A stretch of DNA of 64,000 bases from Oscillospiraceae bacterium (GTDB lineage Bacteria > Bacillota > Clostridia > Oscillospirales > Oscillospiraceae), in the NCBI GenBank assembly GCA_017458085.1, contig JAFTGE010000081.1, positions 32,216 through 96,215 of the forward strand, read 5' to 3'. Shown here one piece after another: positions 35,309-41,048 of this stretch. Within the stretch, counting starts at the first letter, position 1, and every line of letters starts with the position of its first letter. The position numbers and the translations under genes are program-made. The notes beneath the pieces are model-generated. The model was given only the letters and a program-made list of their open reading frames with translations, was not told the origin of the DNA and made no database searches.

Positions 35309-36043
35309 TCAGTGCTTGTGTGCCGAGCCACCGGCGCCAACGCCGAAGTGCAGCTCCTTCATCCCTTCCACCTCGTCGCATACGTCCTTGAGCGCGCACA
35401 CGGAGCAGTCCGTGGGCAGACCCTCGAGGATGTGGGTGAGGGTGCCGGTCACATCCGAGGACTTCTTGGCCAGGGCCTTGAGCTCGTTGTAATTGGCGGC
35501 GGGATCGGTGATGAAGATCACCGTGGCATTGATGACCGTGGGGTTTTGCTTGTAGGCGGTGATGTAGTTGTTGCCCAGCGCCTTAAAGCTGATGCCGCGG
35601 CGGATGGCGTCCTTGCTGACGCGCACCTGCTCGCGATAGCTCTCTGGGGAGATACGCACCATGTAGCCCTGGGGATACACGTGGTACTTGGCAAACTCGA
35701 TGTCGCGCAGGGTGCGGTAAACCGCCTCGTCGTCGTCATCCAGCACGCCGATGCGCAGCAGGACGATACGGGCGAAGTCGCAATCGCCCTTGATTTCCTT
35801 GAGATCCTTGCCGCAGAGGATGACCTGATCCTTTGATACCAGCTCGCTGCTGGAGGTGAAGAGGACAAAGTTGGCCGATCCCTTGCCGCTGGCGCCCAGC
35901 TCAAAGGCGGCGTCCTTTTGCAGGACCAGCTCGCTGTTCTGGCTGGAGGTCCACTGGCTGCGCGGATCGTAATCCCAGGTCTTGGCGGAAAGGTGCTCAT
36001 ACTGCGCTGCAGTTTCTTTAATCAGGGAATTATACAGTTCCAT
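35309..36043 (-). CDS. Acetyl-CoA synthase (CdhC/AcsB)-like protein without the A-cluster domain
   Basis: 244 residues. By eye the order of blocks follows the middle part of CdhC/AcsB: FELGASGKGSANFVLF, then KDQVILCGKDLKEI, a VRISPESYREQVRVSKDAI region, SFKALGNNYITAYK and NATVIFITDPAANYNELK. It then has CSVCALKDVC and DEVEGMKELHFG near residues 210-232. The C-terminal catalytic part with the CGCFE motif and the residues that bind the nickel-iron-sulphur A cluster is missing, so it cannot be a complete acetyl-CoA synthase. It is the last gene of an operon with 2-hydroxyacyl-CoA dehydratase-like proteins and a CooC-type ATPase. Homology is judged from memory of the family, not a search. Confidence 0.6.
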   Translation of the reverse strand: MELYNSLIKETAAQYEHLSAKTWDYDPRSQWTSSQNSELVLQKDAAFELGASGKGSANFVLFTSSSELVSKDQVILCGKDLKEIKGDCDFARIVLLRIGVLDDDDEAVYRTLRDIEFAKYHVYPQGYMVRISPESYREQVRVSKDAIRRGISFKALGNNYITAYKQNPTVINATVIFITDPAANYNELKALAKKSSDVTGTLTHILEGLPTDCSVCALKDVCDEVEGMKELHFGVGAGGSAHKH

Positions 36044-36067
36044 AGGACAAACTACCTCTCGGAGGGA

Positions 36068-36244
36068 CTAGAATACGATGTCGACCTTCTTTTGATCGAA
36101 GATCAGGTTGACCTGCTTGTATGCCCAACCGAGCAGCTTCTGATCCAGATTCCAGAAATAGACGACGAACAGAACGCCGACGACTGCGACCAGAATGAGC
36201 ACGATCTTTTTAAATACTTCTAAGATTTTGCACATATTTCGCAT
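36068..36244 (-). CDS. 58-residue single-pass membrane protein
   Basis: Small gene: ATG at 36244 after AAAGGAG (8 nt), stop at 36068. The protein has a basic start (MRNMCKILEVFKK), one membrane segment (IVLILVAVVGVLFVVYFW) and a soluble tail of about 27 residues (ending KKVDIVF). It lies between the activator ATPase and the ACS-like gene with short gaps (32 and 24 bp), so it is part of the operon. It may anchor one of these proteins to the membrane; no family is recognised. Confidence 0.75.
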   Translation of the reverse strand: MRNMCKILEVFKKIVLILVAVVGVLFVVYFWNLDQKLLGWAYKQVNLIFDQKKVDIVF

Positions 36245-36276
36245 ATGCTCCTTTCCTTAATTGGCCGGGGCAACAC

Positions 36277-37071
36277 TTACTTCTTGGCCAGGCCCTTCTG
36301 ACGGGCGTACTCGGCAGCGCCCAGAGCGCCCATGAGCTGGGGATCGGTCTTGAGGTTGACGACCTTGAGCTTCAGCACGTGCTCAATGGCCTCCTTCAGA
36401 CCGTCGTTCTTGGCGCAGCCGCCGGTCAGCGTGATGCTGTCGGTAGCGCCGGCCTTCTTGGCCATGACGAAGCAGCGCTTGGCAACGGCCATCTCGATGC
36501 CCGCGGCGATCTCGTCGGTCGCCTTGCCCTCGCCCACCAGGGTGATGACCTCGGACTCGGCAAACACGGTGCACTGCGCGGTGATGGGGATGACGTTCTT
36601 TGCCGTCAGGCTCAGCTTGGAAAACTCCGGCAGGCTCAGCTCGAAGGAGCGGGCCATGGCCTCGAAGAAGCGGCCGGTGCCGGCGGCGCACTTGTCGTTC
36701 ATGGCGAAGTTCTTCACCGTGCCGTCGGTGTCGATGCTGATGCCCTTAACGTCCTGGCCGCCGATATCGATGATGGCCTTGACGTCGGGGTTGGTGACGT
36801 GCACGCCCATGGCGTGGCAGGAGATCTCGGAGATGTTCTCGTCGGCGAAGGGAACCTTGTTGCGGCCGTAGCCGGTGCCGATGAGGTAGGCCAGATCCTT
36901 GCTGCTCTTCAGCCCGGCCTTGGTGCAGACCTCTTCCATCGCCGCGATAGCGCTCTGCTCGGAATTGATCTTGGAACGAATGGTGGTGTCGGCAACCATC
37001 TTGCCGTTCTCGTCCAGAATGACTGCCTTCGTGTAGGTGGACCCTACGTCACATCCGCCAAAGTATTTCAT
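36277..37071 (-). CDS. 2-hydroxyacyl-CoA dehydratase activator ATPase (HgdC/HadI type)
   Basis: 264 residues from ATG 37071, AAAGGAGA upstream. ASKHA ATPase fold: YFGGCDVGSTYTKAVILDE, IGTGYGRNKVPFAD, AIIDIGGQDVKGISID, MNDKCAAGTGRFFEAMA (first cluster Cys), TAQCTVFAESEVITL (second Cys) and TLTGGCAKNDGLKEA. The homodimer shares one [4Fe-4S] cluster and uses ATP to inject an electron into the dehydratase. Length and motifs are normal. It sits after the two dehydratase-like subunits, separated from them by copy 2 of the four-hairpin repeat. Confidence 0.95.
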   Translation of the reverse strand: MKYFGGCDVGSTYTKAVILDENGKMVADTTIRSKINSEQSAIAAMEEVCTKAGLKSSKDLAYLIGTGYGRNKVPFADENISEISCHAMGVHVTNPDVKAIIDIGGQDVKGISIDTDGTVKNFAMNDKCAAGTGRFFEAMARSFELSLPEFSKLSLTAKNVIPITAQCTVFAESEVITLVGEGKATDEIAAGIEMAVAKRCFVMAKKAGATDSITLTGGCAKNDGLKEAIEHVLKLKVVNLKTDPQLMGALGAAEYARQKGLAKK

Positions 37072-37112
37072 GTAAAAAATCTCCTTTTTGTAAGTATTCA
37101 AATACAGCGCGG

Positions 37113-37278
37113 CCTCGCAGACTTTTTCGCCGCACACGGCGAAAAATCAATGGGATCGTTTTTCCCGGCGACATGCGCGTCGGGAAAAACACATCTCAGC
37201 CTGTCAGTGTGCGAGCGAAGCGAGTGCGCGCAACAGGCTGCAAGCCCTTCTAAACGGAAAGGCTTCGCCTTTCCGTTT
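37113..37278 (-). repeat. Four-hairpin 3'-UTR element, copy 2
   Basis: Minus orientation, its first hairpin overlapping the stop codon of the upstream dehydratase gene. Hairpin A: AAACGGAAAGGC/GCCTTTCCGTTT (37252-37278). Hairpin B: CAGCCTGT/ACAGGCTG. Hairpin C: GTTTTTCCCG/CGGGAAAAAC with loop CGCATGT (37158-37190). Hairpin D: TTTTTCGCC/GGCGAAAAA (about 37123-37146). The end reads TCTGCGAGGC as in copy 1. It splits the six-gene operon. Confidence 0.75.
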
Positions 37279-39073
37279 ACATGCAGACCTCGTCCTCAAA
37301 CTCGACCAGAGACGGGTCGACAGGCTCGGCCTTCATGACGGTACGCATGTACTCGTTGACCTTGTCGCGCATGGTGCGGCGAGACACGGTACGGGGGTCC
37401 ATCAGGTCGTGCTCGATCCAGATCAGATCGTAGCCGCGCTGACGACCCTGCTCGTCGAGAATACCCTGAACGGTGGCCATGTTCTTGCAGGCCACGTTCT
37501 GGTACATGATGACCAGCGGCGCGTTCCAGGCTTCCACCTGACGCCAGCACTCGTCGACGACGTTCTGGTAACCGCCGTTGGTGTGACGGCGCATAACCAT
37601 GCGCTCGTACAGACGGGCCAGGTCGCGCAGGGCCTCTTCCTTGTCTTCGGTCTCCAGGTGCTTGGTGAAGTTCAGGGACTCCATCTCGACCAGGATGTCG
37701 ATGCCCCAGCAGTTGGCCAGCCAGTTGGAGAAGTTGGCGTAGTAGTGGGCCGGGCAGGACCACACGATGCCGCGGTACTTCATCTTGCGCGCAGGCCATG
37801 CGGTCTCGCCGTTCTCGTATGCCTTCATGAGCATGCGGTCGACCTTCTGCATGGAGGGCAGAACGCGCGGATCGATGCCGCCGTCCATTTCGTAGTTCCA
37901 CTTGCGGAACAGCTCATAGCTGGGTCCGATCAGCTGCGGGCGGTCAGACTTGTTGATCTCCCACTTGTTCAGCTCAAGGTCGGTCTCCTGGTTGAAGCGC
38001 TTCATGCAGGTGAAGTAAGCGTCCCAGGACCACTTGGCGCCGGTCTTCTCCTCGATGAACTTGATGCAGGCCTTGATATCCTCGGCGCCCATCTGCACGG
38101 TCTCCTCATCCATGTAGCGGACGGGGAAGCAGAGGTGGAACACGGGGATATGCGGGAAGCGGCGGGAGAAGTAGGAGGAAGCCATGGTGGAGCCGTCGCA
38201 GGGCATGGAGCTGGAGATAAAGCCGGAGCCCATGTCGGGCAGCGCGTCGATGACGAGGGCGCCGCACTCGGAGGAGGGCACAGGGCAGGTGTCGGAGGGC
38301 AGGCCGAAGGACTCGACCGCGTCGATGTAGGGGATGCAGACGAGCTGGTCGATCTCGGAGACCAGGAACATGGGCAGCAGCTGATGGGGGATGCCGCACA
38401 GGTCGGGGAAGCCGGCCATGATCTGGCCCATGGTCATCTCGTCGAAGGTGATCATCATCTTGTTGAGCTCATCGCTGTTGCCGTTTTTACGGTCGGCCTT
38501 GCTGAGGAGCACCAGGTTCTCCGCGACATAGCGGAAGATCTGGTAGGTCAGCTCATGGCTCATGCGCAGGTTGGAGCCGCGCAGACCCAGGATGTTCTTA
38601 TCCATAAAGCCGTGGCAGCAGAAGTAGGAGATCATCCAGCGATACCACAGCGCGCCGTTGAGCGCAGGGATCAGGTCCTTGGAGAAGGTGCCGAGCAGCA
38701 TGCCCCACAGACGGGCCCACTCCCAGAAGTCATAGGCGGTATCCTTGACGCCGCGCCACTCACGGCGTACCGTGGCCATGGCGCCCTTGCGGTAGAGGCG
38801 GCCGAGGCTGCGCTCGCCGTTGACGATGCGGTCCCATTTTTCGTTGTTGTCGAGGGCCATGAAGTCCTTATACTCGCCCTTGACGCGCGCCCAGTCGGCC
38901 TTGGCGTCGTTGGCGCGGTCCTTACCGAACTGCTGCCAGTCGGTGCCCTTGAGCATATCCCAGGCGATGGTGCCGACCTCGGCCAGGTTCTCACCCTGGC
39001 GCTTCCAGTTCATGTTGTCTTTGGCTTTCCAGAATTTCGGATTCGGGTAAACAAGTTTCTCCTTCTTAGCCAT
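37277..39073 (-). CDS. 2-hydroxyacyl-CoA dehydratase-family protein, long subunit
   Basis: 598 residues, longer than typical HgdA/HadB subunits (about 400-480) because of an N-terminal extension of about 120 residues rich in Lys, Trp and acidic residues. The rest resembles the HGD-D fold: a region around FPDLCGIPHQLLP, PSSECGALVIDALPDMG, PCDGSTMASSYFSRRFP and the late WSCPAHYYANFSNWLA and MYQNVACKNMA, with Cys residues available for a [4Fe-4S] cluster. Such subunits dehydrate 2-hydroxyacyl-CoA or reduce aromatic acyl-CoA after single-electron activation. Substrate unknown. It overlaps the companion subunit gene by one base. Confidence 0.8.
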   Translation of the reverse strand: MAKKEKLVYPNPKFWKAKDNMNWKRQGENLAEVGTIAWDMLKGTDWQQFGKDRANDAKADWARVKGEYKDFMALDNNEKWDRIVNGERSLGRLYRKGAMATVRREWRGVKDTAYDFWEWARLWGMLLGTFSKDLIPALNGALWYRWMISYFCCHGFMDKNILGLRGSNLRMSHELTYQIFRYVAENLVLLSKADRKNGNSDELNKMMITFDEMTMGQIMAGFPDLCGIPHQLLPMFLVSEIDQLVCIPYIDAVESFGLPSDTCPVPSSECGALVIDALPDMGSGFISSSMPCDGSTMASSYFSRRFPHIPVFHLCFPVRYMDEETVQMGAEDIKACIKFIEEKTGAKWSWDAYFTCMKRFNQETDLELNKWEINKSDRPQLIGPSYELFRKWNYEMDGGIDPRVLPSMQKVDRMLMKAYENGETAWPARKMKYRGIVWSCPAHYYANFSNWLANCWGIDILVEMESLNFTKHLETEDKEEALRDLARLYERMVMRRHTNGGYQNVVDECWRQVEAWNAPLVIMYQNVACKNMATVQGILDEQGRQRGYDLIWIEHDLMDPRTVSRRTMRDKVNEYMRTVMKAEPVDPSLVEFEDEVCM

Positions 39074-40269
39074 TATTTCAAGCCCTCCTCTTTGTGGATA
39101 CGTTTGATCTCAAGGGACTCAACGAAGGCCTGGACGCGGGTACGCAGCTGACCGGAGTTGCCGTTGTTGTACAGACGGTCGATGCTCAGTACGGGCCAGC
39201 CGTACTCGTCGTGCATGATGTGGGACACCAGCGCACGCTCGAAGCCCCAGTAGTCACAGTACTTCATCTGTTCGTAAATGATGCCCTCGGCCTTGTACTC
39301 CTTGGCCAGGCGGTCGGCGGTCTCACGGCGCTGGAGCACCTTCTCGTCGGCGATGTAGCGGGCGCACTCGGAGTGCTGCATGACGTGCAGGCAGAGCTGA
39401 CGCAGGGCGCTGTCGTCGTCGTTGAGCTCGATGACCTCGCGGCCGGGGGTGGAGCCGAAGCAGTAACGGTCGGACACGACCAGCGCGCCGCAGCCTTCGA
39501 TCAGCTTGGTCAGGTTGTGGTCGTCGATCTCGCTTCCGACGATCGCCACGCGGGCGCGGAAGGGATTGACGGGATCGGGCTCGCGGGCCTTGATCTCCTC
39601 GAGCGTCTCACGCAGGTAGGGGAGGATCAGGCGCTTGGGACACGTAAAGGAGACGAGGTTGAGCACGTGGAACTCATAGCCGGTGACGATGGGGTTTTCT
39701 CTCTTGCGCAGCTGGCCGATCTCGGACAGAATGGCGCAGACCTCGTTATGTTCAGCGACGGCCTTGCGGATGGCCTCGTCGGAGGTGTCGACGCCGAACC
39801 GCTCGGTCAGCTGATCGAGCACGTGGATGCGCATCTGCTTCTCATAGGAATCGAGGGTGTAATCGGTTACCTTGAAGGGGATGTCGCAGTGGGTGACGAA
39901 GAAATTGGGCTTTTCGTTGACGTTCAGGATCTCGAAGTGCTCCATGGCGCGGTTCATCATGGAGCAGGCGTCGACGCCGATGAGCGCGTCGAGGAATTCA
40001 TAGCCGCCCTCGATGCCGCGCTCGAGCAGCGCTCTGGCATACTCGCAGGTGTAGTTGGACATGTAGTAGGTGGCGATGTCGATGGAGCCCGTGTTGGGGG
40101 CGCGAAGACGTACCGAGAAGCAATTGCCAACGTTGAGCAGAGCCTCGGGGACATGGTAGCAGGTGTAGCCGAGGCAGATATCACCCTCGGCCTGAGCCTG
40201 TTTGACCAGCTCATTGTCGGCGTTCTCAAGCAGGTTTTCGAAGTAGATCAGATGCTTAAGATCTTTCAA
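39073..40269 (-). CDS. 2-hydroxyacyl-CoA dehydratase-family protein, short subunit
   Basis: 398 residues, normal length. Signs: GDICLGYTCYHVPEALL near residue 30 (Cys-containing loop), LDALIGVDACSMMNRAMEHF, PNFFVTHCDIPFKV, RARVAIVGSEIDDHNLTKLI and the end EQMKYCDYWGFERALVSHIM followed by PVLSIDRLY, which contains the conserved Cys of the second half. The architecture matches the HgdB/BcrC-like subunit that carries a [4Fe-4S] cluster. Partner of the preceding-listed long subunit. SD: GAGAGGTGTAAC. Confidence 0.85.
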   Translation of the reverse strand: MKDLKHLIYFENLLENADNELVKQAQAEGDICLGYTCYHVPEALLNVGNCFSVRLRAPNTGSIDIATYYMSNYTCEYARALLERGIEGGYEFLDALIGVDACSMMNRAMEHFEILNVNEKPNFFVTHCDIPFKVTDYTLDSYEKQMRIHVLDQLTERFGVDTSDEAIRKAVAEHNEVCAILSEIGQLRKRENPIVTGYEFHVLNLVSFTCPKRLILPYLRETLEEIKAREPDPVNPFRARVAIVGSEIDDHNLTKLIEGCGALVVSDRYCFGSTPGREVIELNDDDSALRQLCLHVMQHSECARYIADEKVLQRRETADRLAKEYKAEGIIYEQMKYCDYWGFERALVSHIMHDEYGWPVLSIDRLYNNGNSGQLRTRVQAFVESLEIKRIHKEEGLK

Positions 40270-40283
40270 ATGTTACACCTCTC

Positions 40284-41048
40284 TTATAGAATTTCTATGT
40301 TGTGGAGTGCTTCCTTCACTCCCTTGAGCATAGCGGAATCCGCAGGCAGGGCCAGCACGCTCTTACCCATGATGTCGTTGGCGGCAAAGGCGCTGTCGGC
40401 GGGGATGAAGGACAGGACGTCGACGCCGGGGGCCTTGAACTCCGCTACGAGCTCGGGGTTGGTGACCCGGTTGACGATGACGCCGATCCGGTTGTAGGCG
40501 ATCAGCTCGTCGGCCACGTCCTTGATGGTGGCGATGACCTGTGCGCCCTTCTTGCTTTGGTCGGTGACGAGGATCAGGTGCGTGACCTTCTCCATGACGC
40601 GGCGCTGGATCTGCTCGATGCCGGCCTCGCCGTCAATGACGACGTAGTCGAAGCTGTTGGCGAGCAGCCCGATCACTTCCTTGAGGTAGGAGTTGACCTT
40701 GCAGTAGCAGCCGGAGCTCTCCGGCCGGCCGATGGCAAGGAAGGCAAAGCCCGGCATCTCCACCAGCGCGTCGAAGATGCGGAAGCGCGCCTCGCTTAAA
40801 AGCTCCAGGGCCTCGCGTGTCTCGCCGTTTTCCACGCTGTCGACGATGCTCATGCGGATATCGTCCAGCGTGAGCTTGACGTCGACACCCAGGGCGACGG
40901 AAAGGCCGACCGCAGGGTCCGCGTCGATGGCGAGGATCTTCTTGTCCGGATATTGTTCGACCAGCAGCCTGACTATCGAAGCGCAGATCGAGGTCTTGCC
41001 GACGCCGCCCTTGCCTGCGACTGTGATAATCTTGGCCGAATTATCCAT
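40284..41048 (-). CDS. CooC-type nickel/CODH-maturation ATPase (MinD/ParA fold)
   Basis: 254 residues. Deviant Walker A AGKGGVGKTS near residue 11, switch LAIDADPAVG, FDYVVIDGEAG and the diagnostic CooC segment GRPESSGCYCKVNSYLKEV with the CxC pair that binds metal at the dimer interface. CooC proteins load nickel into CO dehydrogenase and acetyl-CoA synthase. No CODH is in the window, but an ACS-like protein closes the same operon. AAGGAGGG ribosome site. First gene of the operon, with a promoter at 41100-41128. Confidence 0.88.
   Translation of the reverse strand: MDNSAKIITVAGKGGVGKTSICASIVRLLVEQYPDKKILAIDADPAVGLSVALGVDVKLTLDDIRMSIVDSVENGETREALELLSEARFRIFDALVEMPGFAFLAIGRPESSGCYCKVNSYLKEVIGLLANSFDYVVIDGEAGIEQIQRRVMEKVTHLILVTDQSKKGAQVIATIKDVADELIAYNRIGVIVNRVTNPELVAEFKAPGVDVLSFIPADSAFAANDIMGKSVLALPADSAMLKGVKEALHNIEIL

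Follow-up and report, generated by a model that had tools for sequence, protein, structure and literature searches.

In class I benzoyl-CoA reductases, electrons are proposed to pass from an activator over a double cubane to an open [4Fe-4S] cluster, and the structure of BzdNO made in E. coli shows this double cubane (both according to the excerpted text of PMC11971306). We found two HGD-D subunits with the cysteine patterns of this enzyme in a block of six genes on the minus strand of a 64,000-nucleotide stretch of DNA (the window; Oscillospiraceae bacterium, contig JAFTGE010000081.1, positions 32,216 to 96,215), where they are accompanied by an activator, a small membrane-like protein, a CooC-type ATPase and a shortened relative of acetyl-CoA synthase (ACS). 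The six-gene set resembles an ATP-driven reductase that is anchored in the membrane and serves difficult electron transfers. We see about an even chance that such sets encode membrane-anchored, ATP-driven double-cubane reductases, which share an activator and an in-trans pair of CooC and CdhC-like proteins that helps with a metal centre.

The HGD-D pair

According to its cysteine pattern, the HGD-D pair is of the class I benzoyl-CoA reductase/double-cubane type and not of the dehydratase type. The protein hgdA (names are labels given in this analysis; Table 1) matches BzdN with E 8e-44, and all six of its ligand cysteines align with BzdN Cys36/73/100/263/293/327, the double-cubane ligands as numbered in the excerpted text of PMC11971306. 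Proteins of up to 330 aa were left out before the cysteines were counted, and part of the hgdA copies from a 20-genome search was included; on this basis the six hgdA cysteines are kept in 60/60 rows (58/58 and a further 2/2, L174 and L232), and the three [4Fe-4S] cysteines of hgdB in 60/60 ungapped rows, including those of L174, L183, L230 and L232 after a strand check. The dehydratase beta subunit 3o3m_B has Pro and Ala in the places of hgdA Cys37 and Cys270. A first-pass annotation of the sequence had named the pair a 2-hydroxyacyl-CoA dehydratase; we dropped this label because the pattern of six cysteines in hgdA and three in hgdB matches benzoyl-CoA reductase instead.

Both subunits are HGD-D proteins, as that annotation had also stated, and the N-terminal extension that it saw in one of them is real; its length, however, is about 165 residues relative to BzdO rather than the roughly 120 claimed, and only about the first 85-100 are lineage-specific. 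At hgdB position 295, which aligns with BzdO His131 in a register read by eye, the 57 rows hold Ser (50), Asn (4), Ala (2) and one gap, and thus no His in the 56 ungapped rows. The NCBIfam model of DCCP (NF040772) scores hgdA at 130.5 and hgdB at 26.2 bits, both under its cut-off of 350, and the hgdAB pairs of the operons fall into several subclades.

Conservation and distribution

All six genes of the minus-strand run described in the first-pass annotation are confirmed in the window, and its identification of a CooC-type ATPase with a GCYC motif, an HgdC-type activator and a membrane protein belonging to the unit holds up in the related loci described below. The set also reaches well beyond the source genome: when 84,980 species, each represented by one genome, were scanned, 496 stretches matched the pattern, and tblastn identified 424 of these as relatives. 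Among the best 80 of these 424, which we refer to as the named loci, mem lies directly upstream of cdhC-like in 73, act is present upstream in 68 and all five genes in 14. Where at least 5.1 kb of upstream sequence is available (21 loci), 14 loci are complete, L022 has five of the six genes (no cooC, diverged hgdAB), and six have cdhC-like apart from hgdAB. The latter six (L077, L078, L079, L080, L082 and L085) and L081 make up the 7/80 named loci with a separate cdhC-like gene, which has cooC beside it in L078 and L085.

Eleven further loci come from other genomes that hold the set (holder genomes; L126-L136). Nine have the six genes in order and belong to families f1, f23, f52 and f79, L132 (f33) is cut by the contig end, and L136 (genome G824, f190) shows the order hgdA-hgdB-act-act-cdhC-cooC in a genome that also encodes an ACS-size relative. 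Since the gene order recurs where identity of the CdhC-like protein falls to 25-46%, the arrangement is more than chance. This is a conserved six-gene set carried by gut and rumen bacteria.

The short CdhC-like protein was present in 5/295 sampled genomes of the order and, with the source genome counted, in 7/391 of the class, where longer reading frames hold another two matches. Of 398 genomes sampled from the phylum, 48 gave a match, with the short form only in the source genome and G824 and the other matches in frames of 708-784 aa. hgdA (E<=1e-100) occurs in the same five of the 295 order genomes as cdhC-like, in a test whose profile was built partly from these five. Carbon monoxide dehydrogenase (CODH; TIGR01702) was found in 0/5 holder genomes, as was full ACS (TIGR00316 above cut-off), for which two weaker matches are the short protein itself. 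Many of the genomes are metagenome-assembled according to their record titles, and copy counts could miss some genes.

Copy numbers, activator and membrane protein

Holder genomes carry the parts of the set in unequal numbers. hgdA (E<=1e-100) was detected in 19 of 20 holder genomes with one to nine copies each, four of them in the source genome, and each of the 20 has exactly one cdhC-like gene with the cysteine motif; in two genomes there is a further relative that lacks the cysteines. Behind 34/37 hgdB genes at other loci stands a small protein that has a hydrophobic stretch and a FNLDxK-like motif; this count combines 28/33 with six more, two of these found by looser settings (L180, L187 and L225 were left out beforehand). 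L181 has this protein after act, and in L179 and L186 none was found. Because of these copy numbers and the mem-like proteins behind other hgdB genes, we take hgdA-hgdB-mem as the repeating unit; act, cooC and cdhC-like appear to be shared. Relatives of mem with 52-63 aa and a tail of the FNLDxKL...HYD...RD type stand at the same place in eight holder loci, with a weaker match in L133, and mem is a probable membrane anchor.

The closest match of act is MbdQ (E 9.8e-64), and its cluster motifs, KC[AS]AGTG and CTVFAE, are present in 24/24 complete copies. The operon holds one activator gene; two different activators occur only in the diverged systems of G824 and G473. Activators with at least 74% identity number one or two in 16/20 holder genomes, contig-end fragments counted. 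Contigs often break here: of 80 related contigs, 45 have their start within act, as expected of a near-identical repeat or of a gene shared between species, and a piece of act forms the end of L080 (in G1055). A second act copy was observed in the source genome (L170:3722-4516, G000:C25); its identity of 99.2% spans exactly the 795 coding nucleotides, and the neighbouring genes are far less alike.

CdhC-like protein and CooC-type ATPase

Profile, alignment and predicted structure agree that cdhC-like has the fold of ACS domain 2: it scores 32 bits against Pfam CdhC (curated cut-off 24) over residues 37-182, so that the CdhC/AcsB relationship of the first-pass annotation stands, with a structural match. 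Its statement that the protein ends before the A-cluster domain does not, as cdhC-like reaches the A-cluster motif and ends in CxxCx5C. This C-terminal motif is invariant in 32/32 sequences, as is Arg141, which aligns with AcsB Arg429 (counted by hand on the alignment), a residue whose region is linked to CoA binding. Six A-cluster cysteines are present in 29/29 ACS-size homologs and three in cdhC-like. A second CdhC-like protein of 216-217 aa, which lacks the cysteine tail, is encoded at L221:7060-7710 and L222:7098-7751; no hgdAB was seen in these fetched stretches.

Searched against the PDB, cooC matches CooC (3kje) best (E 1.3e-15), and the CYC motifs of the two align in register. GCYCxxNxxL is found in 16/16 complete cooC genes of the named loci, and GCYC together with the P-loop in 10/10 further holder loci (L126-L131, L133-L136). 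Nickel is the known cargo of CooC kin, and domain 2 of ACS sits beside a nickel site.

Gene block and surroundings

hgdA and hgdB overlap by 1 base, and the remaining gaps along the block measure 14, 205, 32 and 24 nt (Table 1). The position of act is given from the conserved start, MKYFGG; its listed open reading frame has a GTG start 66 nt upstream of this. Among the neighbours tested with Pfam, an MBOAT acyltransferase lies upstream and the sporulation gene yabP downstream of the block; we therefore see no pathway link around it. No aromatic degradation genes were recognised beside the operon. Rfam searches gave no match in or beside the operon in the searched loci; the three matches obtained (L126, L128) are a ribosomal leader, a transfer-messenger RNA and a glycine riboswitch away from it. 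A pattern scan counted 2 promoter-like sites against 2.6 by chance and 12 terminator-like sites, lying on both strands, against 5.3 (standard deviation 1.8); none is used as evidence.

Table 1. Positions in the window and assignments of the six genes
Gene	Position	Strand	Assignment
cooC	40284-41048	-	CooC-type P-loop ATPase, 254 aa; GKGGVGKT P-loop and GCYCxxNxxL motif; Pfam CbiA/ParA ATPase
hgdA	39073-40269	-	TTG start; HGD-D, 300.8 bits; BzdN/DCCP type; predicted [8Fe-9S] double-cubane carrier, Cys37/75/102/270/302/338
hgdB	37277-39073	-	HGD-D, 106.9 bits; BzdO/HadA type; predicted [4Fe-4S], Cys 263/292/529 and open site; extra N-terminal part
act	36277-37071	-	HgdC/MbdQ-type ATP-dependent activator; BcrAD_BadFG, 193.5 bits
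mem	36068-36244	-	Small protein with one hydrophobic segment (by eye and hydropathy); probable membrane anchor; no Pfam above cut-off
cdhC-like	35309-36043	-	ACS domain 2 (A2) and C-terminal CxxCx5C (Cys213/216/222); 244 aa

The genes beside hgdAB paralogs vary, and no common pathway was found among them. According to Pfam, three loci have GntR/FCD regulators next to them and three have FAD/Fe-S oxidoreductases; a regulator at L176 and oxidoreductases at L224 and L231 were recognised by eye or BLAST label only, and L231 also has a molybdopterin oxidoreductase. The GntR/FCD-type regulators next to hgdAB (L228:3320-4015, L238:10102-10806, L231:31-729) suggest a regulated, perhaps substrate-induced expression.

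A large FAD/Fe-S oxidoreductase and hypA, in L182 also hypB, stand directly before hgdAB at L182:8092-13296 and L223:4578-10524. Altogether, hypA or hypB adjoins hgdA or hgdB in L182, L223 and L224, the last of which has only a weaker, shorter oxidoreductase relative nearby on the other strand. When we call these oxidoreductases IsrA-like, this refers to size, Pfam domains and context alone; 73% of IsrA homologs lie near HypA according to the excerpted text of PMC10134865. HypA was above cut-off in 18/20 genomes (19 of the holder set and the genome of L013), with up to six matches in one, and a [NiFe]-hydrogenase large subunit in 6/20. HypA/HypB as evidence of nickel for hgdAB was dropped, as both may belong to the neighbouring oxidoreductase instead.

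Two diverged clusters were also observed. In G473, a second system of the double-cubane type (L180:4838-14551) has two activators and its own CooC-like ATPase with GCFC; it stands with genes for a CoA-transferase and an AMP-binding enzyme and, as judged by eye, for a thiolase and a 3-hydroxyacyl-CoA dehydrogenase, and no cdhC-like match was found within this stretch. The diverged cluster of G824 is preceded (L136:14186-17963) by a frame that resembles an acyl-CoA dehydrogenase by eye and by two long, helical-looking proteins.

Proposed mechanism and alternatives

From gene content, cysteine patterns, folds, conservation, co-occurrence and copy numbers, all taken from sequence and predicted structure, we infer clusters, electron path, anchoring, helper role and metal identity as follows. 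hgdA, hgdB and mem would together make up a reductase that belongs to the class I benzoyl-CoA reductase/double-cubane family and is anchored in the membrane. Act would accept electrons from reduced ferredoxin or flavodoxin and, under ATP hydrolysis, supply the [8Fe-9S] cluster of hgdA with them singly and at very low potential; the electrons would then move on to the [4Fe-4S] cluster of hgdB, whose fourth, non-cysteine site would bind water or substrate; this path follows the proposal for class I benzoyl-CoA reductase cited at the outset. Electron transfer would take place at the membrane surface, set by mem. CooC would carry a metal and drive its transfer by ATP hydrolysis, and the CdhC-like protein would receive or dock this metal or cluster and deliver it to the hgdAB pairs of the cell.

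Several observations weigh against this mechanism. The three-cysteine match to the A-cluster stems from a forced global alignment, the local alignment stopping at residue 194, and the cysteine tail is predicted to be disordered (pLDDT <50 in nearly all residues from 208 on). The best activator in G1053 is only 44% identical, and none was found in G824, G1054 and G1055 at E<=1e-60; these missing activators weaken the case for a shared activator, unless the assemblies break in act. HypA and HypB beside hgdA or hgdB in three genomes may serve the neighbouring oxidoreductase, and Rfam detected no nickel riboswitch in the window, in the 13 related loci searched (a set of 19 with L020, L039, L049, L053, L058 and L064 set aside) or in L182. 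As BzdNO from E. coli has its double cubane, this cluster does not in general need CooC and a CdhC-like protein, and the pair must do something else; most likely, cooC and cdhC-like would load or repair another metal site.

The location of cdhC-like directly after mem in 73/80 named loci also counts against a helper acting in trans, as the gene sits in the operon like that of a subunit, and it keeps this place in the complete holder loci of four families. The CdhC-like protein may thus be a structural subunit, in which ACS domain 2 serves for CoA-ester binding or for docking of the complex, a three-cysteine [4Fe-4S] cluster relays electrons between act and hgdAB, and CooC matures the site. The invariant Arg141, aligned with AcsB Arg429, would suit this role. 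We regard it as possible but doubtful: there is one cdhC-like gene with the cysteine motif for up to nine hgdA per genome (a subunit common to several complexes could still account for this), 34/37 other hgdB genes have a small membrane-like protein of their own, and cdhC-like lies apart from hgdAB in 7/80 named loci. The first-pass annotation had pictured a membrane-associated enzyme that is matured by a metallochaperone and works with an ACS core. The CooC-type ATPase and the membrane protein agree with this picture, but an ACS core inside the enzyme fits poorly, because of the single cdhC-like gene per one to nine hgdA and its separate location in those seven loci. One-carbon chemistry, which it had also suggested, is not borne out; as a leading idea, one-carbon or acetyl-CoA chemistry was rejected, since three A-cluster cysteines are missing and neither CODH nor full ACS was found in 5/5 tested holder genomes.

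These same two findings speak against a CdhC-like client, whose nickel-iron-sulfur site would be reductively activated by hgdAB and act and would itself do the chemistry. ATP-driven reductive activation is known for corrinoid proteins (excerpted text of PMC6739815), and in L078 and L085 cooC and cdhC stand together as a separate unit, but the rest of the C-terminal domain is absent as well and it is difficult to see why one client should have up to nine activating enzymes, so that we consider this role improbable. The chance presence of two unrelated genes in an ordinary 2-hydroxyacyl-CoA dehydratase operon would agree with Pfam, which calls both subunits HGD-D; it is hardly credible given the order and content kept across four families, the presence of hgdA and cdhC-like in the same five of 295 genomes, the rearranged relative in G824 and a cysteine pattern unlike that of the dehydratase. 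A bolder form of the helper-pair mechanism, which appears unlikely, would make these an as yet undescribed class of double-cubane reductases that depend on nickel or another heterometal. CooC and the CdhC-like protein, as kin of the CODH/ACS parts for nickel loading and catalysis, would place a heterometal in the open [4Fe-4S] site of hgdB or restore it there, or do so at the CxxCx5C motif of the CdhC-like protein docked to hgdB, and gut and rumen Clostridia would possess an inducible, membrane-bound, ATP-driven set for different substrates.

Significance

Among the papers listed by searches of the open-licence literature, none treats HGD-D proteins with CooC or CdhC-like genes. These operons would represent a large further branch, with up to nine hgdA per genome and a CdhC-like relative encoded in 424/496 pattern-matched stretches. 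Double-cubane chemistry would be tied to a cut-down ACS and a CooC ATPase where CODH was not found (5/5 tested), which could therefore separate the roles of CooC and of the ACS middle domain from carbon fixation. Should small organic compounds of gut or rumen prove to be the substrates, an ATP-driven reduction system would operate there that Pfam labels a dehydratase.

Comparison with known systems

The putative isoprene reductase operon of IsrA, which includes HypA/HypB, resembles this locus in combining genes of an anaerobic reductase with those of nickel chaperones, and some hgdAB pairs have neighbouring large FAD/Fe-S oxidoreductases that are similar to it (likened by size, domains and context alone); IsrA, however, is described in the excerpted text of PMC10134865 as a flavin/Fe-S oxidoreductase without activator or HGD-D subunits. 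The CooC of CODH (3kje) shares P-loop and CxC in register with cooC, which is linked here to reductase-type HGD-D genes, with no CODH found in the five holder genomes tested. ACS (AcsB/CdhC) shares the domain 2 fold, but has about 730 residues compared to 244 in cdhC-like, which lacks the N-terminal domain, the further C-terminal domain, the fourth [4Fe-4S] cysteine and the Cys-Gly-Cys nickel site; no CODH partner was found in 5/5 tested holder genomes.

The 2-hydroxyacyl-CoA dehydratase (3o3m) has the HGD-D fold, an HgdC-type activator and a three-cysteine subunit in common with the set described here, whereas its beta subunit, which carries a [4Fe-5S] site, is without cysteine at two of the six positions kept by hgdA. 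In DCCP (6eno), all six cysteines align with those of hgdA, and CDG follows the second cysteine as in most hgdB; in contrast to DCCP, the operon encodes two different subunits, only one of which carries six cysteines. Class I benzoyl-CoA reductases (BzdNOPQ, MbdONPQ) likewise combine a six-cysteine (BzdN) with a three-cysteine (BzdO) HGD-D subunit, and MbdQ is the activator closest to act. The set differs from them in its one activator gene instead of two and in an hgdB without the histidine at the place of BzdO His131, and adds a small membrane-like protein, up to nine hgdA copies and CooC and CdhC-like partners.

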